Assembly: GCA_030447385.1 (NCBI GenBank)
Contig: JAUJOY010000005.1
Location: 192,319-256,318 of the forward strand
Source of the DNA: Mycobacteriales bacterium
GTDB taxonomy: Bacteria; Actinomycetota; Actinomycetes; Mycobacteriales; SCTD01
Reading direction: 5' to 3'
Length of the DNA: 64,000 nt
Positions 25,630 through 40,321 of the stretch are shown here, one piece after another (positions within the stretch are counted from its first letter, which is position 1; the number at the start of each line of letters is the position of its first letter). The position numbers were made by a program, and so were the translations under genes. The notes beneath the pieces are model-generated. The model did not search any database, had not been told where the DNA came from, and saw nothing but the letters and a program-made list of their open reading frames with translations.

Positions 25630-26208
25630 TCAGAGGTGGTTTGTGACCGCCGGCAGCAGGTCCGAAATGGTCCGGCCGGTGGCGGTCGCACCGATCGCCG
25701 TCATCGACCACGCGCTTCCGTCACGCGTGACCTTGGCCATGATCTGGGCGTTGTGCCGGCCCGAGCCGGAGAGCTCGTAGCGCGCCAGCTCGGTCTGGTT
25801 GGTCTCGTCGACGAGGCGGCAGAAGGCGTTCTCGATCTGGGAGAAGTCCTGGCCCGTGAACGAGTTGACGGTGAACACCAGCGTCTGCACCGAGGCGGGG
25901 ACGGCGAGCAGGTCGACGATCACCGACTCGTCATCGCCCTCGCCCTCACCGGTGAGGTTGTCGCCGGTGTGGCGGACCGAGCCGTCCTTGCTCGTCAGCT
26001 GCTGGAACCACACCGAGTCGATCAGCTCGCGGTTGGCGCCGAAGAGCAGGCACGAGGCGTCGAGGTCGATGGCCTGCTCCTTGACCTTTCCGAACAGGCC
26101 CTTCTTCTTCATCGCGTCCCAGCCCAGTCCCATCCGAACCCGGGTGAGCCTCCCCCCGCCCTGCTTGACCAGCGAGACGCTCTGCCCCTTCTGCAGGTTG
26201 ACGCCCAT
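25630..26208 (-). CDS. terD: TerD-family stress protein (copy 1)
   Basis: The 192-residue product has one TerD domain. It starts MGVNLQKGQSVSLVKQGGG and has the calcium-binding loops IDLDASCLLFGANRE and [30 protein letters not shown] insert follows MKKK near residue 35, making it longer at the N-terminus than its paralogue. TerD proteins bind calcium and are thought to sense or relay stress at the membrane. ATG 26208 has an AAGGAG site. It is divergent from the second terD. Confidence 0.92.
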   Translation of the reverse strand: MGVNLQKGQSVSLVKQGGGRLTRVRMGLGWDAMKKKGLFGKVKEQAIDLDASCLLFGANRELIDSVWFQQLTSKDGSVRHTGDNLTGEGEGDDESVIVDLLAVPASVQTLVFTVNSFTGQDFSQIENAFCRLVDETNQTELARYELSGSGRHNAQIMAKVTRDGSAWSMTAIGATATGRTISDLLPAVTNHL

Positions 26209-26432: not shown

Positions 26433-27008
26433 GTGACGGTCAGCCTCAGCAAGGGCGGCAACGTCTCCCTCACCAAGGAGGCCCCCGGCATGACGGCCGT
26501 ACTGGTCGGGCTCGGCTGGGACGCCCGTACGACGACAGGGACCGACTTCGACCTCGACGCCAGCGCCATCATGGTCAAGTCCGACGGCAAGGTCATGTCC
26601 GACAGCCACTTCATCTTCTTCAACAACAAGAAGTCCCCCGACGGCTCGGTCGAGCACACCGGCGACAACCTCACCGGTGAGGGCGAGGGGGACGACGAGT
26701 CGATCAAGGTCAACCTGGCCTCGGTGCCGCCGGAGGTCGACAAGATCGTCTTCCCGGTCTCGATCTACGAGGCGGACCAGCGCTCGCAGAGCTTCGGGCA
26801 GGTGCGCAACGCCTTCATCCGGATCGTCAACCAGTCCGGCAACGCCGAGGTGGCCCGCTACGACCTGACCGAGGACGCCTCCACCGAGACCGCCATGGTC
26901 TTCGGCGAGCTCTACCGCAACGGCGCGGACTGGAAGTTCCGCGCCGTCGGCCAGGGCTACGCGTCGGGCCTGTCCGGCATCGCCCGCGACTTCGGCGTCA
27001 ACGTCTGA
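26433..27008 (+). CDS. terD: TerD-family stress protein (copy 2)
   Basis: The 191-residue single TerD-domain protein starts [18 protein letters not shown]. Its calcium-site sequences are [15 protein letters not shown] and [19 protein letters not shown]. The conserved [20 protein letters not shown] and [19 protein letters not shown] blocks are present and the length is that of classical TerD/TerE. GTG 26433 follows an AGAGGA site. It heads a plus-strand run with the TerA-like and HpcH-like genes, spaced by 52 and 7 bases. Confidence 0.92.
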
Positions 27009-27060: not shown

Positions 27061-27768
27061 ATGCCCATCGACTACAGCAAGCGCCCGGGCTCAGGTGGGG
27101 GCAACCCGCCGGACCCGGGCAGGCCGGCCTCGCCGGTGTCGCTGTCCAAGGTCACCCTGACCAAGTCGAGCCCCACGGTGTCGCTCACCAAGAGCGGCGG
27201 CGCCGGGGGCAAGCTCCACGTCAACCTCAACTGGAATGCCAGGGCGGCGTCGGCCGAGCAGCCGAAGGGCTTCCTCAAGCGCATCGCGGCGGCGGCGCAG
27301 AGCGGCGCGATCGACCTCGACCTGGGCTGCCTGTTCGAGCTCAGCGACGGGCGCAAGGGAGTGATCCAGGCTCTGGGGCGGCAGTTCGGCTCGCTCGACG
27401 CGCCCCCGTACATCTTCCTCGACGGCGACGACCGCTCCGGCGCCGTCTCGGGCGGGGAGAACCTCTACGTCAACCTCGCGCATGCCAACGCGCTGCGGCG
27501 GATCCTCGTCTTCGCCAGCATCTACGAGGGGGCGTCCGGCTTCGACCAGGCCGACGGCGTGGTGACGCTGACGCCGGCCTCCGGACCGCCCCTCGAGGTG
27601 CGCCTCGACGAGACCGCCGGCCGGTCGCGCATGTGCGCCATCGCCCTCATCGAGAACCGCGGTGGCGAGCTCACCGTCAGCCGCGAGGTGCGCTACATCG
27701 ACGGCGCCCAGGACGCCCTCGACCGGGCGTACGGCTGGGGCATGGACTGGACTCCGGGCCGCAAGTAG
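27061..27768 (+). CDS. TerD-domain protein, TerA-like
   Basis: The 235-residue product has a proline/glycine-rich N-terminus of about 25 residues, then a divergent TerD domain. The repeat VSLSKVTLTKSSPTVSLTKS is followed by KLHVNLNWNAR, AIDLDLGCLFELSDGRKG, PYIFLDGDDRSGAVSGGEN and ILVFASIYEGASGFDQADG. It ends RAYGWGMDWTPGRK. The Asp-rich loops are changed from the classical calcium site, as in TerA-type members. It probably partners the TerD proteins at the membrane. Start ATG 27061 with GAAGGAG seven bases upstream. Confidence 0.85.
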   Translation: MPIDYSKRPGSGGGNPPDPGRPASPVSLSKVTLTKSSPTVSLTKSGGAGGKLHVNLNWNARAASAEQPKGFLKRIAAAAQSGAIDLDLGCLFELSDGRKGVIQALGRQFGSLDAPPYIFLDGDDRSGAVSGGENLYVNLAHANALRRILVFASIYEGASGFDQADGVVTLTPASGPPLEVRLDETAGRSRMCAIALIENRGGELTVSREVRYIDGAQDALDRAYGWGMDWTPGRK

Positions 27769-27775
27769 GGCTTGG

Positions 27776-28945
27776 GTGCGCCACTTCTCCTTCCTCTCGG
27801 AGGGGGTTCTCGACGCGCTGTTCGACCGGATCCCCATGCCCTTCTCCGCCGACAGCGAGCGGGAGACTCTGGCGGTGGCGCTGGGAGCCACGCTGTACAT
27901 GCCGGGTACGCGCCCGACGCTCGCGCGCGACGTCGCACGTCGCAGCGCCGCTGGCGTCATGTCGGTGGTGCTGTGCCTGGAGGACTCCATCGCGGACGCC
28001 GACCTGCCCGCCGCGGAGTCGAACGTCGTCGAGCACGTGCACGCCCTCGCCGCCAGCAGCACCCGTGAAGATGCTCCGCTGCTGTTCGTCCGCGTGCGCG
28101 CGGCCGAGCAGATCAGCGACCTCGTCGAGCGCCTGGGCACCGCCGCCGCCCGGCTGACCGGCTTCGTGCTGCCCAAGTTCACCGCCGGCCGGGGGGTGGC
28201 GTTCTTCGACCACCTCGCCAAGGGGGAGCAGGTGGCGGGGGTGCCGCTGCTGGCGATGCCCGTGCTGGAGTCGGCCGACGTGATGTACCGCGAGCGGCGG
28301 ACCGCCGCCCTGCACGACATCGGGCAGCTGCTCGCCGAGCACCGCCACCGGGTCCTCGCGCTGCGCCTCGGCGCTGCCGACCTGGCGGGCCTCTACGCGC
28401 TGCGCCGCCAGCGCGACGTCAACGTCTACGACGTCGGGGTGATCCGCGACGTCATCACCGACATCGTCAACGTGCTCGGCCGAGCCGACGGCACCGGGTT
28501 CGTGATCACCGGCCCCGTGTGGGAGCACTTCGCCGGCACGGAGCGCCTGTTCAAGCCGCGCCTGCGCAGCACCCCCTTCCAGGCCGACGAGGAGCTGCGG
28601 GAGCAGCTGATCGGCGCCGACCACGACGAGCTCCTGCGCGAGGTCGTCCTCGACAAGGCCAACGGCCTGATCGGCAAGACGGTGATCCACCCCGACCACG
28701 TCGCGCCGGTGCACTCGCTGCTCGTGGTCACCCACGAGGAGTACGACGACGCCCAGGCCGTCCTCGACAGCACCGGTGGCGGCGCCAGCAGCTCGTCGTA
28801 CCGCAACAAGATGAACGAAGCCGGACCGCACCGGGAGTGGGCGCGGGCGGTGCTGCGCCGCGCCGAGGCGTTCGGGGTCGCCGGGTACGGGCACGGCGTC
28901 GTCGACATCCTCTCGGCGCTGTCACCGCGCACCTACCCGGCCTGA
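27776..28945 (+). CDS. HpcH/HpaI aldolase / citrate lyase-like protein of ter clusters
   Basis: The 389-residue product has a TIM-barrel C-C lyase fold of the CitE type. Typical blocks are LGATLYMPGTRPTLARDVA, VVLCLEDSIADADLPAAE, LPKFTAGRGVAFFDHLA, VLALRLGAADLAGLYALRR and IGKTVIHPDHVAPVHSLLVV, where Glu/Asp in LEDS and GAAD would bind the metal. Citrate-lyase-like members are a recurrent part of actinobacterial ter loci and are predicted to act in building the cluster's metabolite. GTG 27776 follows the TerA-like stop by seven bases. Its stop lies in a terminator stem shared with the opposing HAD gene. Confidence 0.85.
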   Translation: MRHFSFLSEGVLDALFDRIPMPFSADSERETLAVALGATLYMPGTRPTLARDVARRSAAGVMSVVLCLEDSIADADLPAAESNVVEHVHALAASSTREDAPLLFVRVRAAEQISDLVERLGTAAARLTGFVLPKFTAGRGVAFFDHLAKGEQVAGVPLLAMPVLESADVMYRERRTAALHDIGQLLAEHRHRVLALRLGAADLAGLYALRRQRDVNVYDVGVIRDVITDIVNVLGRADGTGFVITGPVWEHFAGTERLFKPRLRSTPFQADEELREQLIGADHDELLREVVLDKANGLIGKTVIHPDHVAPVHSLLVVTHEEYDDAQAVLDSTGGGASSSSYRNKMNEAGPHREWARAVLRRAEAFGVAGYGHGVVDILSALSPRTYPA

Positions 28946-28965
28946 GCCGCCGAGCCGCCTCAGGC
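28940..28965. terminator. bidirectional hairpin between convergent ter operons
   Basis: GCCTGAG (28940-28946) pairs with CTCAGGC (28959-28965). Each arm holds the stop codon of one gene: TGA 28943-28945 on plus and TGA complement 28960-28962 on minus. Confidence 0.55.
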
Positions 28966-29781
28966 GTCCGGCGTGCCCACCGCCGCGTGCTCCAGCCACG
29001 CGGCGACGATCTCCTCAGCCGCCGCGAGACCCGCCTGCGCGGTGCGGGTGAGGTGCGGCGCCGACCGGCCGAGCCGGGCGAGCTCGCTGCCCGCGGGGAC
29101 CCAACCCCTCTCCGCGGCGCACAGCATCGGCCAGTCCAGCAGCGTGTCGCCGGCCGCCAGCAGGCCCGGGGTCACACCGGTGTCCTGCTCCACGCGGGCG
29201 GCCACGTGCGCGACCGCCGCGGCCTTGTCCAGGGCGTGGGGCAGGACGTAGAGCTTTCGCCCCTGGTGCAGCGCCCGCCAGCCGTGGCCGTCACAGGCCG
29301 AAGCCACGTGCGCGAGCTCGTCGGCGGACAGCCGGTCGGCGTCGACCGCGGCCACCAGGAACACGTCGTCGGCGTCCCTGATCCGCAGCAGCCACTCCCG
29401 GTCGCGGTAGCCGTCGAAGACCTCCCGCAGGGCCGCGACCGGGGAGGAGACGTCGTGCAGCCGCGAGGCGACCGAGTCCGCCCAGTCGAGGTCCGGCTCT
29501 CCGTCGACGAGGATCCCGCCGCCGCTCGCGACGACGGCGTAGCGCGGGCGGGTCGGGAGGTCGAGCCGCTCGTACTGCCTGCGGGCCCGGGTGGTGGTGG
29601 GGACGAAGACGGCGAGCCGGTCGAGCTCGAGCAGACCGGACTCGGTCTCGTCCGACATCAGGCTGATGACCCGGCCGTCGAGGACCTCGACGACGCGGTG
29701 GGGCCTGTCCGGACCCCGGGCGGCGGCCGTGGGGGAGAAGATCAGCGTCTGGTCGAGATCGCCCGCGACGAGGAGCGTCAC
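28960..29781 (-). CDS. HAD-family phosphatase of ter biosynthetic module
   Basis: The 273-residue product is a Cof-type HAD enzyme. Motif I is VAGDLDQTLIFSP with nucleophile and acid/base Asp, and motif IV is GLLAAGDTLLDWPML. Between them is an alpha/beta cap with YVLPHALDKAAAVAHVAAR, whose Lys fits motif III. It should remove a phosphate from a small molecule, probably an intermediate made by the two adjacent phosphoribosyltransferases. GTG 29781 overlaps the upstream stop as GTGA, so translation is coupled. It is the last gene of the minus-strand run. Confidence 0.85.
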   Translation of the reverse strand: MTLLVAGDLDQTLIFSPTAAARGPDRPHRVVEVLDGRVISLMSDETESGLLELDRLAVFVPTTTRARRQYERLDLPTRPRYAVVASGGGILVDGEPDLDWADSVASRLHDVSSPVAALREVFDGYRDREWLLRIRDADDVFLVAAVDADRLSADELAHVASACDGHGWRALHQGRKLYVLPHALDKAAAVAHVAARVEQDTGVTPGLLAAGDTLLDWPMLCAAERGWVPAGSELARLGRSAPHLTRTAQAGLAAAEEIVAAWLEHAAVGTPDA

Positions 29782-30884
29782 GCGTCGGCCGCTTCCAGCG
29801 GCCGGATGAGCCCGACGCAGCTGTAGGACATGCGGTCGTAGTCCACGACCGGCACGTCCCGCTGCGCAGCGAGGTCGAGGACGTGCTCCAGGGCGGCACG
29901 GCGCCCGGGGTGCACCAGCACCTTCCACGGGAGGCGGCGAAGGAGCACCCGCGTCGTCTCGCCGACGCCCGGCTTGACCAGGTGCCATGAGGGCAGGCCG
30001 AACTCGGCCTGGATCCGCGCGACCTCGTCCAGCCCCCGGAAGGTGACGGTCCGGTCGGCGTCGTAGGCCTCGCGCCAGCTCGACCCGACCGCCGCGCTCA
30101 CCGCGGGGAACTGCCGGCTGATCGTGTCGAGGAAGTGGGCGCTGCGGTCCTGCTCCGCGAGCTCGCGGTAGACCTTCGCCCCGTGGAAGGTCCCCGGCGC
30201 GATGAGCTCGCGGCTGTAGACGGTGCGCGACACCAGCCCGCACACGGTGGAGTTCAAGCAGGCGGACGGGATGAGCACGTCCTCCCGGGTGCCGAAGTAC
30301 GACGCGCAGGCGCCCGGGTCCGCGAGCACCGCGAGCTCGTCGGGGAAGCGCGCACCGGGATGCTCGGCCAGCGCCTCCTGCAGCTCGCGCACGATGGCGC
30401 CCTTGCCCGTCCAGCCGTCGACGAAGACCACGTCGGCCGGGTCGTGCCGCGCCGCGAGGTGGTCCAGTGCAGCCCCGTCGACCCCCACGCCCCGCACGAT
30501 CGACACGCTGTAGTGCGGCAGGTCGAGCCCGTACGCGTGTGAGGCCCACCGGCGCAGCAGGATGCCGACGGGGGTGCCCGCCCGGGCCAGGGACACGAGC
30601 ACCGCCCCGGGGCCCCTGGCCGCCAGCACCATCTGCGTGACGACGCCCACCAGGCGGGCCAGCTCGGCGGCGTGCTGCTGCAACCCCTGCTCGAACAGCT
30701 CCAGGTAGCGCGGCCCCGGCGCGTACTCGACCGGCAGCATCTCGGCGTAGTTGCGCCCGCTCTGCACCGCCCGCTCCCGCTCGGCGACGTCGAGCTCCAG
30801 CGCCAGGTCGGACAGGTCGGTGAGCAGGAAGCGCACCTCCCCGGGGGCGTAGCTGCTGACGACGAGCGGCGCCTGCACCCTCAT
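29778..30884 (-). CDS. StiP-type phosphoribosyltransferase-fold protein with PELOTA-like C-terminus
   Basis: The 368-residue protein matches the family annotated as StiP cysteine protease or, in comparative work on ter loci, as a PRTase. The N-terminus RVQAPLVVSSYAPGEVRFL is typical. The PRPP-type loop region is DVVFVDGWTGKGAIVRELQE. Other conserved stretches are VLVSLARAGTPVGILLRRWA, LIPSACLNSTVCGLVSRTVY and GTFHGAKVYREL. The C-terminal 80 residues (LVKPGVGETTRVLLRRLPWK) resemble the PELOTA RNA-binding fold fused to these enzymes. ATG 30884 overlaps the previous stop as ATGA. Protease versus transferase activity cannot be settled from sequence. Confidence 0.8.
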   Translation of the reverse strand: MRVQAPLVVSSYAPGEVRFLLTDLSDLALELDVAERERAVQSGRNYAEMLPVEYAPGPRYLELFEQGLQQHAAELARLVGVVTQMVLAARGPGAVLVSLARAGTPVGILLRRWASHAYGLDLPHYSVSIVRGVGVDGAALDHLAARHDPADVVFVDGWTGKGAIVRELQEALAEHPGARFPDELAVLADPGACASYFGTREDVLIPSACLNSTVCGLVSRTVYSRELIAPGTFHGAKVYRELAEQDRSAHFLDTISRQFPAVSAAVGSSWREAYDADRTVTFRGLDEVARIQAEFGLPSWHLVKPGVGETTRVLLRRLPWKVLVHPGRRAALEHVLDLAAQRDVPVVDYDRMSYSCVGLIRPLEAADA

Positions 30885-32131
30885 GCTCCCGGGCCGACCG
30901 CGGCGCAGGACCCGCCGGCGCACACCACCACCTGCACGGTGCACGTCGCCGAGAGGGCGAGCTGGTGCACCAACCCCAGACGGGTGTGCGGCTGCAGCGG
31001 CCGGTCCAGGAGCAGCACGATGGAGTCGAAGCCCGGTGCCGGGCCACGGTCGGACTGGGTGCTCGGGAACACGTTGTAGGCGAAGGCCTCTCGACCGGCG
31101 TCGTCGGTGGCGGCGAAGCGCAGGGCGGTGCGCAGGGGGTAGCCGTGCTCGTCGACGGCCAGCGCGGGGGAGCGGGTCGTGGAGCCCGTGCGGGCGCGTT
31201 TCCCGAGCCGCTGCGCCACCAGCTGCCCGAGGTAGAGGAACTCCTCGTCACCGAGCACCAGCACCGACCCTTCGACCTCGAGCCTGCCGGCCAGCAGCTC
31301 GGCGGCCGACCGCAGCGCCTGCTCGTCGGGGAGGCCCCACCCGTGCGCCGCCGAGAGCGGTCCGGCCACCGTCAGGTCCCGCACGCTCACCGGCGCTGCG
31401 GGACCGGCGGCGCGATCGGGCTCGGCCGGGTGGGCGGCGAGCAGTGCGTCCGCCGCCGCGGAGAGCCCGGGCGGGAGCCGGACCTGCCCGTCGACCAGGC
31501 TCACCGACGTCAGCTGCGCACCCATGTCGGCCACCTCGGCGGTGTTGGCCATGCGCTGCTCGGGGCTGCGCACGTCGAGCAGGCTCGCGAGGACGTAGCG
31601 GCGCCGGGGCCAGCGGTCCTGCAGCACCCGGATGGCGTTGACCGCCGTGCGCCCGCTCGACAGCTCGTCGTCGACCAGCACCACCGGCCACTCGGGGTCC
31701 TGCAGCAGCGCGTCGTCGCGGATCGCCAGGACCTGCTCCACCGCATGGGAGTGCTCCTCCTCGAACGACAGGGGAGCCAGGCCGCTCGGCACCTTCCGAC
31801 GGGTGGTGTGCGCATACGGAGCCGGCCCGGCGTCGCGCGCGCACACCCGCGCGACGCCGTGGCCCAGCGCCGTGGCGGTCTCGGCGAAACCGAGGACGTA
31901 CGGCGTGCTGCCGCCCACCGCGCGCCGCACGCGCGATCCGAGCTCCTCGGCGGCCCCGAGCACCACCGCCGCCGGCGCAGGGACGTGCTTGCCGAGCACG
32001 CTCGACACCAGCAGGTGGGCCCGTTTCGGGTTGCGGCGAAGCGCCAGGACGGCGACGTCGCGCGCCGCGGTGAGCGTGGCGCCCGTCTTCGCGCTCACCC
32101 AGCCCGCATCGGGGACGGCAGGTGCCTGCAT
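30881..32131 (-). CDS. phosphoribosyltransferase with C-terminal TRSP domain
   Basis: This 416-residue protein has the PRPP-binding loop VVLVDDELSSGRTAVNAIRV at about residue 150 and an upstream core strand HLLVSSVLGKHVPAPAAVVL. The GFAETATALGHGVARV segment fits the PRTase hood. The C-terminal TRSP-like half holds VLVLGDEEFLYLGQLVAQRL and FDSIVLLLDRPLQPHTRLG. It belongs to the second PRTase type found paired with StiP-like proteins in ter clusters, predicted to make a C-N or C-C linked nucleoside-like product. ATG 32131 is 27 bases after the coiled-coil gene. Confidence 0.85.
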   Translation of the reverse strand: MQAPAVPDAGWVSAKTGATLTAARDVAVLALRRNPKRAHLLVSSVLGKHVPAPAAVVLGAAEELGSRVRRAVGGSTPYVLGFAETATALGHGVARVCARDAGPAPYAHTTRRKVPSGLAPLSFEEEHSHAVEQVLAIRDDALLQDPEWPVVLVDDELSSGRTAVNAIRVLQDRWPRRRYVLASLLDVRSPEQRMANTAEVADMGAQLTSVSLVDGQVRLPPGLSAAADALLAAHPAEPDRAAGPAAPVSVRDLTVAGPLSAAHGWGLPDEQALRSAAELLAGRLEVEGSVLVLGDEEFLYLGQLVAQRLGKRARTGSTTRSPALAVDEHGYPLRTALRFAATDDAGREAFAYNVFPSTQSDRGPAPGFDSIVLLLDRPLQPHTRLGLVHQLALSATCTVQVVVCAGGSCAAVGPGA

Positions 32132-32158: not shown

Positions 32159-33403
32159 TCAGGGTGCACGGAAGGCGCGGATGTCGACGACGAGGCCGCG
32201 TGCCTCGTCGACGATCGCGTCCAGGTTCTGAGCGTAGGCGAGCCAGTCGGGGTGGGCGCGCTCCAGCAGTCGCTGCGCCCCGTCGAGGCGTTCCGCCAGC
32301 GCGTCCAGGGCCCGCGCGTGCCGGCCGTAGAAGGGCCCGGACATGAGCAGCTTCTGGGCATCCCGCACCGCGAAGCGCGCCCTCGCGTGCACGGCCGCAG
32401 GATCGGCCGAGACCCGGTCCAGAAGTGCGAGCCGGTTGCGGGGCGCGTCGACGACGGCCTCCGCCGCGGTCAGCGCCTCCCGTGCCCGGGCCAGCCGGCT
32501 GCGGGCCTCCTCCCAGCGCTGCTGGGCATCCGAGGCGGCCAGCAGGGCGCTGTCGAGGTCGCGCTGCGCGTCCGCAAGGGCGTCGCGCACGCGCTTCGTC
32601 CCCTCCTCCAGATCCCGCCAGCAGCCCTCCACGTAGCCGCGCCGCAGGGCACGCATCTCCTGCTCGCTGCCGCGCTCGGCCCGCCACTGGACCGCCGCCA
32701 GGCGCGTGCGCAGCGAGGCGGCGCTGGTCTGCACCTGCCGGCGCAGCTCGGGCAGCTTCTCCACGTCGTGCGCCGCCTCGTGCGCCGCCGCCACCGCGTC
32801 GCCGCATGCCTGCAGCACGGTGTCCATGCCGTGCACCACCGGCCCCTCCTGCACGACCCGCAGGTGCTCCAGGGCGGCGTCGAGCAGTCCCCGTGCGCGC
32901 CGGGCGATCAGCCCGCCTGCCTCGGCCTCGGCCACCGCCGTCCCCGCCTGCGCCACCGCCTCCTCGGCGGCGCTGCGGCGCGCCCGCAGCTGGTCCAGGC
33001 TCCGCGTCACGCTGACGAAGTCGGAGGTGAAGCGTTCGGAGAACGCGGAGATGTCGGCGAGCACCGCCGACATCGCCGAGGCGTGTCCCTCGAAGCCGGC
33101 TGCGGCCGCGGAGGCCTCCTCGAGCTCCAGGTCGGTCGTGACGTCCCAGCGGTCCAGTGCCTCCAGGTAGGCGTGGATGGCCGCGTCGGCAGCCGCGCTC
33201 ACGGGGGCCCAGGCGAGGCGGATGCGGCGGGCGATGGCCCCGGCATCGACGTTGGCCAGGAAGTCCAGGTGCGAGAACGCCGAGCGCTGGGCCGTATCCA
33301 GCTCCAGCAGGGCTATCGCCGCCCGGGCCTGGGCCTCCCGCGCGGCAGCGAGCGCGAGGTCACGTCGGCGGCGCCACCACCTCGGCTGGGGGACGTCGGA
33401 CAT
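32159..33403 (-). CDS. long helical coiled-coil protein of ter cluster
   Basis: The 414-residue product is almost wholly helical with heptad-like patterns (RDLALAAAREAQARAAIALL, DLDSALLAASDAQQRWEEAR, LARAREALTAAEAVVD). It carries a basic WWRRRR patch near the start and a conserved-looking LLMSGPFYGRHARALDAL near 340. It has no signal or membrane segment. A scaffold or filament role within the Ter system is plausible but not shown; no named family is recognised. It lies 27 bases after terB and 27 before the phosphoribosyltransferase gene, clearly within the operon. Confidence 0.75.
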   Translation of the reverse strand: MSDVPQPRWWRRRRDLALAAAREAQARAAIALLELDTAQRSAFSHLDFLANVDAGAIARRIRLAWAPVSAAADAAIHAYLEALDRWDVTTDLELEEASAAAAGFEGHASAMSAVLADISAFSERFTSDFVSVTRSLDQLRARRSAAEEAVAQAGTAVAEAEAGGLIARRARGLLDAALEHLRVVQEGPVVHGMDTVLQACGDAVAAAHEAAHDVEKLPELRRQVQTSAASLRTRLAAVQWRAERGSEQEMRALRRGYVEGCWRDLEEGTKRVRDALADAQRDLDSALLAASDAQQRWEEARSRLARAREALTAAEAVVDAPRNRLALLDRVSADPAAVHARARFAVRDAQKLLMSGPFYGRHARALDALAERLDGAQRLLERAHPDWLAYAQNLDAIVDEARGLVVDIRAFRAP

Positions 33404-33430: not shown

Positions 33431-33886
33431 CTACAGGTCGAACTCGGACGGCGAGATGCCGACCGCGAAGCAGGCCTCCTTGACAGCCTTCTTCTCGTCG
33501 GCGTCGAAGTTGCCGTCGGCCCCGCCGATGATGATCCCGATCTGGATCACGGCGCGCCCCTGGTCCTGCTTCTTCTTGAGCTTGGCGATGGTGGCGATGG
33601 CCTCCACCTTGCCGAAGTCGTAGTCCTTGCTCAGCTTGTCGCAGTAGAAGTCGAACTTCTGCCTCAGCTCGTCGGGCGGGAACACCGACAGCACGTCGTT
33701 GCTCATGATCAGGCTGGCCGTCTTCTGGCGCTCGGAGGCGTCGATGCTGCCGTCGGCGGCCGCGATGAGCGCGCACATCGCCATGCTCGCGCTGGCGAAC
33801 TCCTTGCTCTTGAACTGGTCAGCCTTGGTCTTGAGCTGGCTGCTCATCTCCTGCGTACGCGTCTTGAGCTGGTCGAAGAACGCCAT
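33431..33886 (-). CDS. terB: TerB tellurite-resistance protein
   Basis: The 151-residue protein has the all-helical TerB fold with its two acidic metal-binding loops, CALIAAADGSIDASERQKTA and IGGADGNFDADEKKAVKEA. The N-terminus has an amphipathic FFDQLKTRTQEMSSQLKTKA. TerB binds divalent cations and is placed at the inner membrane with TerC. Start ATG 33886 is 54 bases after terC. Length and motifs are canonical. Confidence 0.92.
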   Translation of the reverse strand: MAFFDQLKTRTQEMSSQLKTKADQFKSKEFASASMAMCALIAAADGSIDASERQKTASLIMSNDVLSVFPPDELRQKFDFYCDKLSKDYDFGKVEAIATIAKLKKKQDQGRAVIQIGIIIGGADGNFDADEKKAVKEACFAVGISPSEFDL

Positions 33887-33940: not shown

Positions 33941-35041
33941 TCAGACAGGGGCGGGCTCGTTGCTGGGTATGTCCTTGTCTCCGCTGCCGCCGGGCGTCTC
34001 GCGCTCGCGGCGGTTGGCGAGCACCGAGGACGTGTAGGCGGCCAGGATGAAGGCGAGCCCCAGCAGCCCGGTGACGACCTCGGGGATCTCGTAGTGCAGC
34101 TCGATCAGCAAGATGATCGCCAGCGCGCCGATGGCCCAGTGGGCGCCGTGCTCGAGGTAGCGGTACTCCGCGAGCGTCCCCTGTCGGACGAGGTAGACCG
34201 TCATCGAGCGTACGAAGACCGCGCCGATCCCGAGGCCCGCGGCGATCACGAGCACGTTGGTGCTGATGGCGAAGGCACCGATGACGCCGTCGAAGGAGAA
34301 GGACGCGTCGAGGACCTCGAGGTAGAGGAACGTCGCGAACCCGGCCTTGCCGACGGTCGCCGCGGCCGCTCCCGCGCCGCCGACCTGCGCCGGCAGGGAC
34401 TCGTCCTCGTCCTCCTGCTCGAAGAAGCTGTCGAGGCCGGCCACGCCGAGGTAGGTCACGAGCCCGATGAGGCCGCTGAACAGCACGGTCTTCGCCTCCT
34501 CCTGCTCGACCACGGCCGAGGCGATGAGGACGAGGATTCCGGCGATGAAGATGGACAGCTGGTCGAGCTTGCCGAGCCGCTCCAGGCGGGACTCGAGCGG
34601 CACGAGCCACTTGACCTCCTTCTCCTCGAACAGCCAGTCCAGGAAGATCATCAGGAGGAAGACGCCGCCGAAGGAGTAGATGGACGACTTCGCCTCCTCG
34701 AGCTCCTCGGCGTAGGTCTCGCTGTCGTTCAGGGCGAGGTCGACCACCTCGGCCAGCCCGAGGTTGGCCGTGAGGGCCACGATGACGATCGGGAAGACCA
34801 GGCGCATGCCGAAGACGGCGATGAGGATGCCGACGGTGAGGAACAGCCGCTGCCACAGCGGGGACATCTTCTTGAGGTACTTCGCGTTCACGACCGCGTT
34901 GTCGAACGACAGCGTCACCTCGAGGATCGCGAGGACCGCCGCGGTGAACACCAGCGCGATCGAGCCGCTGAGGATGCCCACGAGGGCCAGCGTGATGATG
35001 GTGACGGCGAGGGAGCCGCGGAAGGCCTTGAGGGTCTGCAC
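33941..35041 (-). CDS. TerC-like integral membrane protein (DUF475)
   Basis: This 366-residue protein has about nine membrane spans and the two signature acidic motifs of the TerC superfamily, LEVTLSFDNAVVNAKYLKKM at about 40-60 and VLDASFSFDGVIGAFAIST at about 225-243. Between them is an acidic cytoplasmic loop (FFEQEDEDESLPAQ). The tail (GSGDKDIPSNEPAPV) is hydrophilic. DUF475 members are the TerC form found in large actinobacterial ter operons and probably export a metal (manganese or calcium) or anchor the TerB/TerD complex. It follows the FN3/J-like gene by 100 bases, enough for its own promoter. Confidence 0.9.
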   Translation of the reverse strand: MQTLKAFRGSLAVTIITLALVGILSGSIALVFTAAVLAILEVTLSFDNAVVNAKYLKKMSPLWQRLFLTVGILIAVFGMRLVFPIVIVALTANLGLAEVVDLALNDSETYAEELEEAKSSIYSFGGVFLLMIFLDWLFEEKEVKWLVPLESRLERLGKLDQLSIFIAGILVLIASAVVEQEEAKTVLFSGLIGLVTYLGVAGLDSFFEQEDEDESLPAQVGGAGAAAATVGKAGFATFLYLEVLDASFSFDGVIGAFAISTNVLVIAAGLGIGAVFVRSMTVYLVRQGTLAEYRYLEHGAHWAIGALAIILLIELHYEIPEVVTGLLGLAFILAAYTSSVLANRRERETPGGSGDKDIPSNEPAPV

Positions 35042-35141: not shown

Positions 35142-37688
35142 TCAGCCCGCCTCGGGAACGTGCATCCTCGCGTCTGGGCCGGGCTCGGCGGCCGCGTGCA
35201 GCGCCCCGTGCACCCGGGCCGCGGTGAAGACCGCGACGTGCAGCGGACGCTCCGGTGGCAGCGCTGCGCCGCCGTCGATCTCGTACCGGGTGTTGGTGAT
35301 CTTGCGCGTCGTCGCCTGCTGCTCGTACGCGGCCTCTGGCGGCGAGTCGCTCCGGCAGGTCAGCAGGACCTCCGTGCAGCCAGGCGGCCACTGCCAGTGC
35401 AGCCGCCCATCCTGGATCTGCAGCCCGTGAACCGGCTCGAGCTCGAGGTAGGCCGCGCACGCCCCCGCGACCGCCGAGCCGTCCGCGCTCGTGGTGAGGA
35501 CGACGTACAGCTGGGGGGCAGCGGGGCGACGGTCGATCGCGAGCCCGGGCCCCATGGCCGGCACCAGGTCGCCCAGCCGCGCCGGTTCGGCGAGGACGCT
35601 GCCGGGTGCTGGTGGGGGAGTGCCGGCGGGCAGCCGGCGGACCTCGCCCTGCCCGCTCCCCGGTGGCGGGTAGGCGAGGCGGATCCGGCGGCCCATCGGC
35701 AGGACGGTCAGCGACGTGACCACCTGGGGAGCCGACGGGGACGGCTGGGCCGCCGGGGTCGGGTTCGCCCGGGGCGATGCGGGGGTCGGGTTCGCGCGTG
35801 GCGCCGGGGTCGCTGCGGGGGTCGCTGCGGGGGTTCCCAGCCGGGGCGGAGCCGCCCCGGGCGGCTCGTCGCCGGACGCCGCCTCGCTGGACACGATGCC
35901 GGCGCGGCGCGCGACGACGACGTAGGTCGGAAGCGGTCCGCCGCCCGGTGGCAGGCCGTCCTCCAGCTCGGTGGTCTGGGTGGTGCCGACAGCCCGGCCG
36001 TTCCCGCGCCGGACCCGGTAGTCGACCGGGCCGGGGGAGGTCGAGGCCTGCCAGCTGACGCGGACCCCGCCGCCGACCCGTTCAGCGCGGACCGAGGTAG
36101 GGGGCGCGACCACCACGTCGGCGAGCGCCGCCACCGTGCCCTCGTGGTCGGGTGCGAGGCGGGCGGCCTCGAGCAGGGCGAGCTCGCGCGAGGTCCCTGA
36201 GAGGACCTGCGCCGCGACCAGGCGGGCGCCGGCCGCCTCCAGACCGGCCCGGGCGAGCGCCAGCGCATCGACCACGGAGGTCCCGCGCGGGCTCGGCAGG
36301 TCGGCGGCGAGCTGCACGAGGCGCTCCAACGCGCCGGCGGCGGTGGTGAAGCGGCTGGTCGCGAGCGCCTGCTCCACCGTCCGCCACTGCTGCTGCGCCT
36401 CGGCCAGCACCGCGGCCACCTCGTCGTCGACCGCGCGGATCGGCGGGAGGGTGCCCCCGGCGAGCCGGCGGGCCTCGCCCACCAGCTGCTGAGCCTGGAC
36501 GGCCCGGCCGGCCCGGAGCGCCGCCCGCGCCTGGGAGAGCGGCTCGGTCCAGGCTCCGCCGCTCGGAGGGGGTGCCGGAGGGAACGGCCGGCCGCCGGAC
36601 CCGGCCCCGGGGGAGCGGGGCCGCCCGGCGGATCCCGTTCGGTCAGCGCGGCCGGCACCTCCACGCAGCGGATGCCCCGACGTCGCGGCGGCTCCCGTCG
36701 GGGGCGCGCCGGCAGATGCCGGCTGCGGCGCGCGTACCCCTGCTTCCCGCGCGAGGTCGGCGAGCACGCGTACCGCCCGGTCCCGGTCGAGCCCGGCCGT
36801 CTGGGCCTCCGCCAGCAGGTGCTCGTGGTCGTCACGCGTGAGCTCGTCCTCGACCAGGACCGCGGCGACGACGCGCGGCCGCAGCCGGGCGGTCACGTCC
36901 TCGGCGACCGCGTCGAGGTAGGCCGAAGCGTCGCCGTCGACCAGCAGCGTCGTGACGGCGGCCAGGAGGTCGTCGACGAGCGCCCGCCGCCGGTCGGGGC
37001 GCAGCTCGCGGTTGCGCGCGGCGGCCGCCTCCCGCTCCGCGCGGACCTCCTGCGCCGGCGCGCCCGGCGGCAGGCCGAGCAGGTCGTACAGGCTGGCCGG
37101 CGGCGTCTCGCCGAGCAGCCGGCCCAGCTCGTCGAGGTCGGCGCGTACCTGGCGGAAGACCGGCGCGGGGACGCTCGGGGCCGCCGCTGCAGGGGCGTCG
37201 TCCAGCAGCGGATGGCGGGCCAGGCGGCTCTCGGTGCTCGCTGCGTCCAGCCCGGCCGCCGCGGCGAACCGGCGCAGGCCGTCGAGCTTGTTGCGCGGGA
37301 TGCCGCCGAACCTCTGGACGACGCGGTCGATCGCGGCGTCGAGGTCGCCGAACCGGTCCTGCTCACGTGCCGCGCGGGCGCTGCGGGCCTGCCCGGCCAT
37401 CGCCGCGCGGCTGTCGCGGCTGCGCAGCAGCGGCGCGACCTCGTCGTGCACCGACAGCAGCGCGGTCACGAGGCCGCGGTACTTCGGGTGGTCGCGCGAC
37501 TTCTGCCAGAAGGCCCACACCGCGTCGATCTGGGTCTCGACGGCGCGGTCCTGAAGCCGCTCGGCCTCCTCGAGCGGGAGGTCGTAGTACTCGAACGGGT
37601 CGCTCGTCTGCGGCCCGCCGCGGGCGTCGATGACCGCGAGCACCCGCTTGCGGTAGTCGTTGCCGTCGAACGGCGCTGCACCCCTCAC
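35142..37688 (-). CDS. large FN3-containing protein, probable Hsp70 partner (J-like)
   Basis: The 848-residue cytoplasmic protein starts at GTG 37688, overlapping the Hsp70 stop as GTGA. The N-terminal 100 residues include DPFEYYDLPLEEAERLQDRA. A second segment near 190-270 (SLYDLLGLPPGAPAQEVRAE) looks like a J-domain but lacks a clear HPD motif. A helical region with QARAALRAGRAVQAQQLVGE and AALERLVQLAADLPSP precedes an FN3 domain (APPTSVRAERVGGGVRVSWQ) and a Pro-rich linker. Two more beta domains end the protein. Coupling suggests it recruits or regulates the adjacent Hsp70 in stress. No named family is certain. Confidence 0.7.
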   Translation of the reverse strand: MRGAAPFDGNDYRKRVLAVIDARGGPQTSDPFEYYDLPLEEAERLQDRAVETQIDAVWAFWQKSRDHPKYRGLVTALLSVHDEVAPLLRSRDSRAAMAGQARSARAAREQDRFGDLDAAIDRVVQRFGGIPRNKLDGLRRFAAAAGLDAASTESRLARHPLLDDAPAAAAPSVPAPVFRQVRADLDELGRLLGETPPASLYDLLGLPPGAPAQEVRAEREAAAARNRELRPDRRRALVDDLLAAVTTLLVDGDASAYLDAVAEDVTARLRPRVVAAVLVEDELTRDDHEHLLAEAQTAGLDRDRAVRVLADLAREAGVRAPQPASAGAPPTGAAATSGHPLRGGAGRADRTGSAGRPRSPGAGSGGRPFPPAPPPSGGAWTEPLSQARAALRAGRAVQAQQLVGEARRLAGGTLPPIRAVDDEVAAVLAEAQQQWRTVEQALATSRFTTAAGALERLVQLAADLPSPRGTSVVDALALARAGLEAAGARLVAAQVLSGTSRELALLEAARLAPDHEGTVAALADVVVAPPTSVRAERVGGGVRVSWQASTSPGPVDYRVRRGNGRAVGTTQTTELEDGLPPGGGPLPTYVVVARRAGIVSSEAASGDEPPGAAPPRLGTPAATPAATPAPRANPTPASPRANPTPAAQPSPSAPQVVTSLTVLPMGRRIRLAYPPPGSGQGEVRRLPAGTPPPAPGSVLAEPARLGDLVPAMGPGLAIDRRPAAPQLYVVLTTSADGSAVAGACAAYLELEPVHGLQIQDGRLHWQWPPGCTEVLLTCRSDSPPEAAYEQQATTRKITNTRYEIDGGAALPPERPLHVAVFTAARVHGALHAAAEPGPDARMHVPEAG

Positions 37689-39391
37689 CGGTCGCGGCGA
37701 CGCACCCGCGCCACCTGGGCCCGCTCGCGCGCGACGTCGGCCTGGCTCAGGGCCGCGCTCGTCTCGACCTGGACGGTCAGCGGCCGGTCGGCCAGTCCCT
37801 CGTGCCAGGCGTGCAGCTCGAGGATCCCGTCGAAGCCCATCCGCAGGCCGATGGAGATCTCGCTGCCCGCTGGGTAGCCGGGCGGGATGCCGGTGATGGA
37901 GGCCTCGGCGATGATCTTGTTGTCCTCCAGGCGCTCGGACTCGGCGCCGCCGCCCTGCTCGACCACCCGGACCGTCACAGTGTCCTGGTCGTCGTGCACC
38001 GTCCCGAACGAGCGCCGTACCGCGACCGGCAGCCGGTCGTTGCGGTGGACGAGGAAGACCGCCTCCGGCTCACCGGTGATGCTCGACAGGGCCAGCACGC
38101 CGAACGCCCGCGAGCAGACGTTGAGCACCTGGACCTGCACGGTCCGGCGGATCCGCTCCGTCGTCAGACCGAGCGCCTCGCCGAGGCGGGCACAGGCCGC
38201 GTCGACGTCCTGCGGCGCGGCGGCGCTGAGCGGCGCGCCGTCCGCGAGCTGCCCGCGGGTCACCAGGTCACCGAGGACGAGCCGCTCGACAGCCTTCTTC
38301 TCGCCGTAGATCGCGGCCCCCTTCGCGACGGCGAGATCGGGGTCGGCGAGCTCTGCGGTGACCCCCAGCTCGGAGGTCAGCCGGGCAGCCACCGCCGGCA
38401 TGCGGCTGGCGCCACCGACGAGCAGGACCCGGTCGAGCCTTCCCAGTCCGCGGTTTCGGGCCGCGGCGACTGCGCTGCGGGTCAGCTCGACGGTGCGGTC
38501 GAGGAGCCCGGCGGTCAGCCGCTCGAAGTCCGTACGGCTGACGGGGACGTCCACCCGCCGGCCGTCGTGCTCGACGCGTACGACGGTGTCGGCCCGATCG
38601 GACAGCTCGCGCTTCGCCCGCTCCGCGGCGAGGACGAGCGCCTGCGCGCCGGCGCTGTCGTCCAGCGGGTCCTCGGCGTCCGGGTGGGCCTGCCGGAAGG
38701 CGTGCGACAGGTGCAGGGCGAGCTTCTCGTCCCAGTCGGCCCCCCCCAGCTCGTGGTCGCCGTCGATCGCGACCACCGCCACGCGGCGCTCGGCGAGCTC
38801 CACCACCGTCACGTCGAACGTGCCGCCGCCGAGGTCGTAGACCAGCGCCGTCTCCTCTACCGGCCCCTTGACGAGGCCTGGGTCAAGGCGCGCGAAGCCG
38901 TACGACAGCGCCGCGGCGATGGGCTCGCTGATCACGTCGAGCACCGTCAACCCGGCGTACTCGCCCGCGAGCACGGTCGCCCGGCGCTCCTCGTCCCCGA
39001 AGTAGGCGGGGACGGTGATGACCACGTCCTGCACCGGCCCGGAGTTGAGGGCGGCGTCGTTGACGAGCGCCTTGAGGATCAGGCTGCTGACTGCAGGCGC
39101 CGACCACGACCTGCCCGAGCTGACGAAGCGCCAGTCCCCGTCACCCATGCGGCGCTTGACCAGCGAGCAGACGTCGTCCGGACGCGACCGGGCCTGGCTG
39201 CGCGCCGGCTCACCGGTCATGCAGTCGTCCGCTCCGAGGAACAGCACGACGCTGGGCAGCGTGAGGGAGCCGTCGAGCAGCGGGACGACCTCGGGCACGC
39301 CTGCGGCGTTGACCGAGGCGAGGCAGCTGTACGTCGTGCCCAGGTCGATGCCGTGCACGGCACCGGTGGACCTCGGCTTCCTGCGCGACAT
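37685..39391 (-). CDS. Hsp70-family chaperone linked to ter cluster
   Basis: The 568-residue product carries all Hsp70 ATPase signatures: VHGIDLGTTYSCLASVNAAG, VITVPAYFGDEERRATV, ALVYDLGGGTFDVTVVELAE and VLLVGGASRMPAVAARL. The substrate domain is short and ends in a basic stretch without the EEVD or DnaK-like acidic tail. It is shorter than housekeeping DnaK (about 620 residues) and has no GrpE or DnaJ neighbour, so it is a specialised paralogue serving the Ter system or its partner gene. ATG 39391 is 114 bases from the divergent AIM24 gene. Confidence 0.88.
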   Translation of the reverse strand: MSRRKPRSTGAVHGIDLGTTYSCLASVNAAGVPEVVPLLDGSLTLPSVVLFLGADDCMTGEPARSQARSRPDDVCSLVKRRMGDGDWRFVSSGRSWSAPAVSSLILKALVNDAALNSGPVQDVVITVPAYFGDEERRATVLAGEYAGLTVLDVISEPIAAALSYGFARLDPGLVKGPVEETALVYDLGGGTFDVTVVELAERRVAVVAIDGDHELGGADWDEKLALHLSHAFRQAHPDAEDPLDDSAGAQALVLAAERAKRELSDRADTVVRVEHDGRRVDVPVSRTDFERLTAGLLDRTVELTRSAVAAARNRGLGRLDRVLLVGGASRMPAVAARLTSELGVTAELADPDLAVAKGAAIYGEKKAVERLVLGDLVTRGQLADGAPLSAAAPQDVDAACARLGEALGLTTERIRRTVQVQVLNVCSRAFGVLALSSITGEPEAVFLVHRNDRLPVAVRRSFGTVHDDQDTVTVRVVEQGGGAESERLEDNKIIAEASITGIPPGYPAGSEISIGLRMGFDGILELHAWHEGLADRPLTVQVETSAALSQADVARERAQVARVRRRDR

Positions 39392-39505: not shown

Positions 39506-40321
39506 ATGACGCTGCAGATCTCGCTGGTCGGCAACGCGATGCAGATGGCTGTGGCGACGTTGGGTCCGGGGCAGACGGTCTACTGCGAGGCCGGCAAGTT
39601 CCTGTTCAGCTCGGGGGATGTGCTCATGGAGACCAAGCTGAGCGCGCCGAGCAGCGGCGAGGAGGTCCCGGGCGCCGGTGGTCTCGGCGGCCTCATGAGG
39701 GGCGCGCTCGACGTCGGCAAGCGGATGATGGCAGGGGAGAGCTTCGCCTACCAGCACTTCTCGACCAGGGGCGGCGACGGCCTGGTCGCGTTCGCCGGGG
39801 TGCTGCCCGGGGAGATGAGGCTGCTGGAGCTCGACGGCGCCACCACGTGGTTCGCGGAGAAGGACGCCTTCGTCGCGGCGGAGGCGGGCGTACGGTCCGA
39901 CATCGCCTTCTCCGGACTGCGTCAGGGATTCGCCGGCGGCGAGGGCTTCGTGCTGCAGAAGCTCAGCGGGACGGGGACGCTGCTGATCGCCGGCGCGGGC
40001 AACTTCATCGAGATCGACCCGGCCGACTACGGCGGCACGCTCAAGGTCGACACCGGCTGCATCGTCGCCTTCGAGTCCACGGTCTCGTACGGCATCGAGC
40101 GGGTCGGACGGCTCAACCGGCAAGGGGCGATGACCGCGCTGTTCGGCGGCGAGGGGCTGTCGCTGGCGACGCTCACCGGCCGCGGGAAGGTCATCCTGCA
40201 GTCGATGACGGTGGAGGCGCTCGCGACGGCTCTCGCGAAGTTCGCCCGGCGGGGTGACGGCGACAACGGGGCGACCGGACTGGGAGCGATCGGCGGCCTG
40301 CTCGGCGGACGGGGCGGCTGA
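39506..40321 (+). CDS. AIM24 family protein (TIGR00266 type)
   Basis: The 271-residue product folds as stacked beta layers, with the family blocks LGPGQTVYCEAGKFLFSSGD, ESFAYQHFSTRGGDGLVAFA, GFAGGEGFVLQKLSGTGTLL and VDTGCIVAFESTVSYGIERV. Its tail is Gly-rich (GAIGGLLGGRGG). AIM24-type proteins are frequent companions of ter genes; their function is unknown. ATG 39506 has AGGAAGGGGG upstream. It is divergent from the Hsp70 gene, so one intergenic region may co-regulate both. Confidence 0.88.
   Translation: MTLQISLVGNAMQMAVATLGPGQTVYCEAGKFLFSSGDVLMETKLSAPSSGEEVPGAGGLGGLMRGALDVGKRMMAGESFAYQHFSTRGGDGLVAFAGVLPGEMRLLELDGATTWFAEKDAFVAAEAGVRSDIAFSGLRQGFAGGEGFVLQKLSGTGTLLIAGAGNFIEIDPADYGGTLKVDTGCIVAFESTVSYGIERVGRLNRQGAMTALFGGEGLSLATLTGRGKVILQSMTVEALATALAKFARRGDGDNGATGLGAIGGLLGGRGG

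Follow-up and report, generated by a model that had tools for sequence, protein, structure and literature searches.

Hsp70, GrpE and a J/TPR-FNIII protein have already been described together in the GAP1-N2 GTPase conflict systems (Kaur et al. 2020, PMC7159879), so the parts list of the locus described here is already known from GAP1 systems. In the canonical chaperone machine, R167, E217 and D393 of DnaK contact or cooperate with the J domain (PMC13012618, PMC7289447). The contact that triggers hydrolysis is formed by D35 of the HPD motif and DnaK R167, and a change at either position can be suppressed by a compensating change at the other (PMC7289447, PMC13012618). In simulation, DnaK R167D had a looser contact between the NBD and SBD-beta, an effect similar to that of a bound J domain; when R(NBD) is altered, the basal activity goes up and stimulation by J is blocked (PMC7289447). 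J proteins are taken to carry the HPD motif universally, with R167 as the fixed counterpart in Hsp70; in the gene pair of this study both have been lost together. The literature searched contained no description of the recruitment of such a pair to Ter, of the co-occurrence rule or of HPD and R167 being lost jointly, and a mention in the 2012 Ter survey (Anantharaman et al.) is possible.

The window, i.e., the whole stretch of 64,000 nucleotides that was analysed, belongs to an actinobacterium closely related to members of Geodermatophilaceae and Frankiaceae, and the carriers of the pair are some soil actinobacteria. The reverse strand encodes an Hsp70 of 568 aa (37685..39391, Pfam HSP70 1.5e-84), which is composed of an ATPase domain and a beta substrate-binding domain and is lid-less, followed by a partner protein of 848 aa (35142..37688), which is predicted to contain the segments J1 and J2, helices, TPR-like helices and an FN3-like C-terminal half. 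The initial annotation had placed the two reading frames here with overlapping stop and start codons, and the sequence agrees: the Hsp70 stop TGA (37687-37685) and the partner start GTG (37688-37686) share a GTGA on the reverse strand (37685..37688), and both ORFs have codon-usage gene calling scores among the highest in the window. The 4-nt overlap was also found in L005, L007 and L039, and the spacing in the remaining loci ranges from a 1-nt overlap to about 100 nt, with 250 nt in L043 when the called start is used. The Hsp70 and partner genes are adjacent and on the same strand in all the related loci found. In the ter-embedded locus L044 (7600-12100), both genes seem to be split by frame changes; this draft genome is 74% complete, and sequencing error or decay is possible.

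Pfam confirmed that the pair is followed on the same strand by TerC and TerB, as had been annotated. On the reverse strand of this ter island lie TerC (DUF475/TerC, 33941..35041, Pfam 8.5e-120), TerB (33431..33886, 8.4e-24), a coiled-coil protein of no family (32159..33403) with homologues in the ter islands of several families (L010, L012, L037, L038 and L041), PRTase_2 with TRSP (30881..32131, 2e-57), StiP with PELOTA_1 (29778..30884, 2.2e-98), a HAD-like phosphatase (28960..29781), which has weak HAD matches and is conserved in ter islands, and a second copy of TerD (25630..26208, 3.8e-48). The forward strand encodes a CitE/HpcH-like C-C bond lyase (27776..28945, PF15617, 2.8e-118), a TerA-like protein (27061..27768), which has no Pfam match and was named from its sequence pattern and context, and TerD (26433..27008, 3.9e-87). 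Seven proteins of the window gave no match to the PADLOC defence models. A gene of the AIM24 family (window 39506-40321) is divergent from the Hsp70 gene, and three AIM24 genes lie in tandem in Geodermatophilus L012 (14142-16413) and in L041 (12400-14551). The recurrence of AIM24 beside the pair or ter genes suggests that AIM24 is part of the Ter island.

The Hsp70 of the pair is a member of the Hsp70 superfamily and, judging from its residues, is predicted to be ATPase-competent, the equivalents of the catalytic D8, K70, E171 and T199 being retained across the family in the alignment (the called ORF in L011 lacks the N-terminus). It scored 290 bits against the NCBIfam DnaK equivalog, below the DnaK cut-off of 648. 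The alignment with the DnaK of the same genome showed an insertion before the linker and the presence of SBD-beta; the protein stops just past SBD-beta and therefore has no helical lid. In the Hsp70 tree, all the pairs whose partner carries an HP[K/R]Y motif formed one clade (99/99), hereafter the ter clade, in which the ter-embedded L043 was deepest. The alignment with the DnaK of the window genome placed Asp152 (codon 38936..38938, reverse strand) at the position of DnaK R167, the partner of the HPD aspartate. This position is Asp in 17 and Gly in five of the 22 ter-clade Hsp70s and Arg in none (L044, an interrupted fragment, was scored for this position only), and the glycines belong to one subclade (L013, L014 and L040-L042). 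The E217 position is occupied by Ala, Ser or Gln and the D393 position by Asn or Thr in every aligned ter-clade Hsp70; the housekeeping DnaK of the window genome has Arg, Glu and Asp at the three positions. Since related Hsp70s outside the ter clade lack R167 as well (E, D, G), its loss extends beyond the Ter link. A second charge swap, at DnaK D477, which is Arg in the window subclade and faces DnaJ K48, was considered and dropped, since other members have E, D or A.

The Pfam scan of the partner gave nothing above the gathering score, and the FN3 and J calls therefore rest on structure; in the partners of relatives, Pfam fn3 gave sub-threshold matches only. AlphaFold2 models were built with 12 homologues for residues 1-322 (pLDDT 91) and 376-848 (pLDDT 85), and the pTM of the former was only 0.5, i.e., the mutual placement of its domains is not fixed by the model. 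Structure prediction bore out the J-like segments proposed in the initial annotation, more clearly for J2 than for J1. The predicted J fold of J2 (residues 197-256, 36921..37100, reverse strand) was compared by VIA, in which J domains headed the list, with Z 7.4 and an rmsd of 2.1 A over 60 residues to the DnaJ of 5NRO (5NRO_B, in complex with DnaK) and Z 7.5-7.6 to two other J domains, values under the 8 below which the tool deems a match not decisive. By hhalign J2 reached 53% against canonical J domains. Foldseek on the 322-residue model returned no E below 0.001 and placed J domains at prob 0.6-0.9, and VIA ranked J domains first. J1 (residues 30-112, 37353..37601, reverse strand), with AlphaFold2 helices at 31-34, 47-63, 71-89 and 91-127, gave Z 6.2 to the J domain of J-PKAc and Z 5.7 to another J domain, which is weaker than J2, and hhalign found no match between J1 and five canonical J domains. 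The predicted fold and the position of its motif weakly suggest that J1 is J-like.

This motif is HPKY (residues 67-70, 37479..37490, reverse strand), which replaces HPD in the predicted helix II-III loop of J1. All 22 partners have HP[K/R]Y without exception, even the most distant ones, which differ at most other positions, and few stretches of the partner are as well conserved as this loop. No HPD motif was found throughout the window partner, in agreement with the earlier reading, or in any of the 21 partners scanned. J2 has RPD in place of HPD; it was rejected as a working motif, being conserved only in the subclade of Geodermatophilaceae, Frankia and the window. The model of residues 376-848 consists of TPR-like helices before an FN3 domain and a disordered stretch after it. 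The FN3 domain already proposed from the sequence is supported by the predicted structure (residues 525-606, 35871..36116, reverse strand), with Z 10.9 and an rmsd of 1.8 A over 79 residues to FN3tt 7JGU. The beta-rich C-terminal region (residues 655-848, 35145..35726, reverse strand), across whose AlphaFold2 strands receptor FN3 tandems could be aligned, is probably two further FN3-like domains.

The pair has a sparse and patchy distribution, with 12 clear cases among 298 genomes of the order, and every Hsp70 relative scoring above 490 bits came from a pair-bearing genome. StiP was present in all 12 of these genomes versus 67 of the 298 overall (Fisher p = 7e-9 by genome and 1e-4 by genus, finer relatedness being ignored, in a sample drawn mainly from one order whose genomes are phylogenetically non-independent). 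Another seven pair-bearing genomes, among them Frankia and Parafrankia, in which the pair is not near ter, were all StiP-positive, giving 19 of 19 testable genomes, and in the window's genus the identical two of nine genomes hold both the pair and StiP. The Ter link is thus strong at the whole-genome level. Among the 12 sampled genomes, the pair and StiP are within about 16 kb in eight, on separate contigs in two and far apart in two. The pair had been interpreted as a chaperone arm of the Ter system, and it does accompany StiP in every pair-bearing genome tested and is itself constant, but the association does not always hold by position: about half of the loci are in or beside a ter island, and the others have ter elsewhere, with the pair away from the island in Frankia, Nocardia, Tsukamurella, L039 and L040. 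Nor are TerC and TerB the usual neighbours, as the window had implied. TerA adjoins the pair in eight of the nine ter-linked loci with visible ter genes (L004, L010, L012, L037, L038, L041, L043 and L044), the window being the exception. In L043 the order on one strand is TerD-TerC-TerA-GrpE-Hsp70-partner-CitE-PRTase-StiP-HAD, and TerA, TerC, StiP and others surround the pair in distant lineages too. The Ter linkage in the ter clade looks old, with later dispersal. GrpE adjoins the pair in eight loci (L013, L014 and L039-L044), three of the calls being above the Pfam cut-off and the rest made by a profile built from neighbouring GrpEs; the profile search of the window and close relatives found no GrpE near the pair in the window, Geodermatophilaceae or Frankiaceae.

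On balance we lean slightly towards the reading that the pair is a dedicated Hsp70 machine for the Ter stress system, insulated from the housekeeping DnaK, DnaJ and GrpE. J1, together with J2, would dock on the Hsp70 of the pair through a rewired contact, in which the K/R of HP[K/R]Y would face the Asp in most members and the contact would be relaxed to Gly in one subclade, and this rewiring would prevent cross-talk with DnaK or DnaJ. Client holding or signal sensing may fall to the partner's TPR-like and FN3 parts, and cycles of ATP binding and hydrolysis would serve to load or release one of the Ter components. The most likely one is TerA, the candidate client because it adjoins the pair in nearly all the visible ter-linked loci. 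Contact of the pair with Ter proteins is what we infer from these data. A more specific version, in which the lock between the HPD aspartate and the R167 arginine has been rebuilt with reversed charges (HP-Lys/Arg versus Asp) into an orthogonal circuit driving a Ter protein, probably TerA, is tentative and seems rather doubtful because of the Gly subclade and the loss of R167 outside the ter clade.

The same losses could be read in another way, i.e., the partner has ceased to be a J protein, the Hsp70 is J-independent and permanently released by the change of R167 to D or G, and the partner is a client-binding scaffold, possibly for Ter. This would account for the loss of both HPD and R167 and for the lack of sequence similarity between J1 and J domains, and it is consistent with the simulated R167D, which mimics a bound J domain, and with the raised basal activity when R(NBD) is altered (PMC7289447). 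But the HP[K/R]Y stretch is highly conserved and occupies the loop between helices II and III in a J-like fold, and the retention of GrpE in eight loci argues for a regulated nucleotide cycle, so we regard a J-independent Hsp70 as unlikely. If the pair is a dedicated machine of Ter, as we prefer, the poorly understood Ter system gains an ATP-driven chaperone arm with TerA as the candidate client, which makes the long-open question of Ter protein function directly testable. The joint loss, with a possible charge swap, would also be a natural experiment on Hsp70 switching and on the separation of chaperone circuits.

Further lid-less Hsp70s, with 40-43% identity, were found in five places, three of which (L054-L056) are GAP1 clusters where an Hsp70 of the sister branch is accompanied by GrpE and a homologous FN3 partner (the GAP1-N2/M/C and DO-GTPase2 domains were scanned in L054). 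The ter clade stands next to this GAP1 branch in the tree (92/86), a join made less certain by long branches. GAP1-C is absent in 17 of the 19 pair-bearing genomes, the window genome included, and was detected in all three GAP1 genomes; no GTPase was seen at the pair loci. From this absence and the sister branch in the tree, the pair is a sister module of the GAP1 Hsp70 theme, without the GTPase half and found with Ter. The shared set of components (PMC7159879) and the content of L054-L056 could also mean that the pair is what remains of a GAP1-N2 system, or a variant of one, with its partner GTPase elsewhere or a role in anti-invader sensing, and that Ter is merely a frequent island neighbour. 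We consider this quite unlikely, since GAP1-C is missing from most pair-bearing genomes and detectable in the GAP1 genomes, StiP accompanies the pair in every pair-bearing genome tested and the ter clade forms its own well-supported branch. As for an ordinary extra Hsp70 of general proteostasis, linked to ter by a common lifestyle, bacteria commonly have Hsp70 paralogues with specialised partners, but the co-occurrence with StiP holds inside a single genus and the pair genes are embedded in ter operons of distant families, which makes this explanation very improbable.

Several other arrangements were observed around these Hsp70s. In L052 (5790-7823), an Hsp70 ATPase domain with Arg at the R167 position is fused to a von Willebrand A domain, and beside the fusion are a lid-less Hsp70 with Glu at this position, a GrpE-like gene and a zinc-ribbon/FN3 protein. 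L053 (8603-10866), which shares its genome with the ter-embedded set L043, has GrpE and a lid-less Hsp70 with Asp at the R167 position and no adjacent FN3/J partner. A second Hsp70-like ORF lies at the far end of the clusters L054-L056, with Glu at the R167 position in the two that were read (L055 and L056).

As compared to the GAP1-N2 DO-GTPase theme (PMC7159879), the pair has the same lid-less Hsp70 of about 560 aa, a GrpE at eight loci, the window not among them, and a large FNIII protein with J or TPR parts. It differs in being Ter-linked, in lacking GAP1-C in 17 of 19 genomes, in having HP[K/R]Y and in the basic RR/KK pair found in a hairpin of the ATPase domain of the ter-clade Hsp70. 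With respect to the Ter-dependent system, the window has the full set beside the pair, i.e., TerA-like, TerB, TerC and TerD proteins, StiP, PRTase, HAD and C-C lyase. The pair shares the three-part logic and the catalytic ATPase residues of DnaK-DnaJ-GrpE, but it has no lid and no HPD, R167, E217 and D393 are replaced, and its co-chaperone is private. Like HscA/Ssq1-Hsc20, the pair would devote a single Hsp70, served by its own J protein, to a single task; that system keeps both the arginine (Ssq1 R207) and the HPD of Hsc20 (PMC7289447), whereas both have been lost in the pair.
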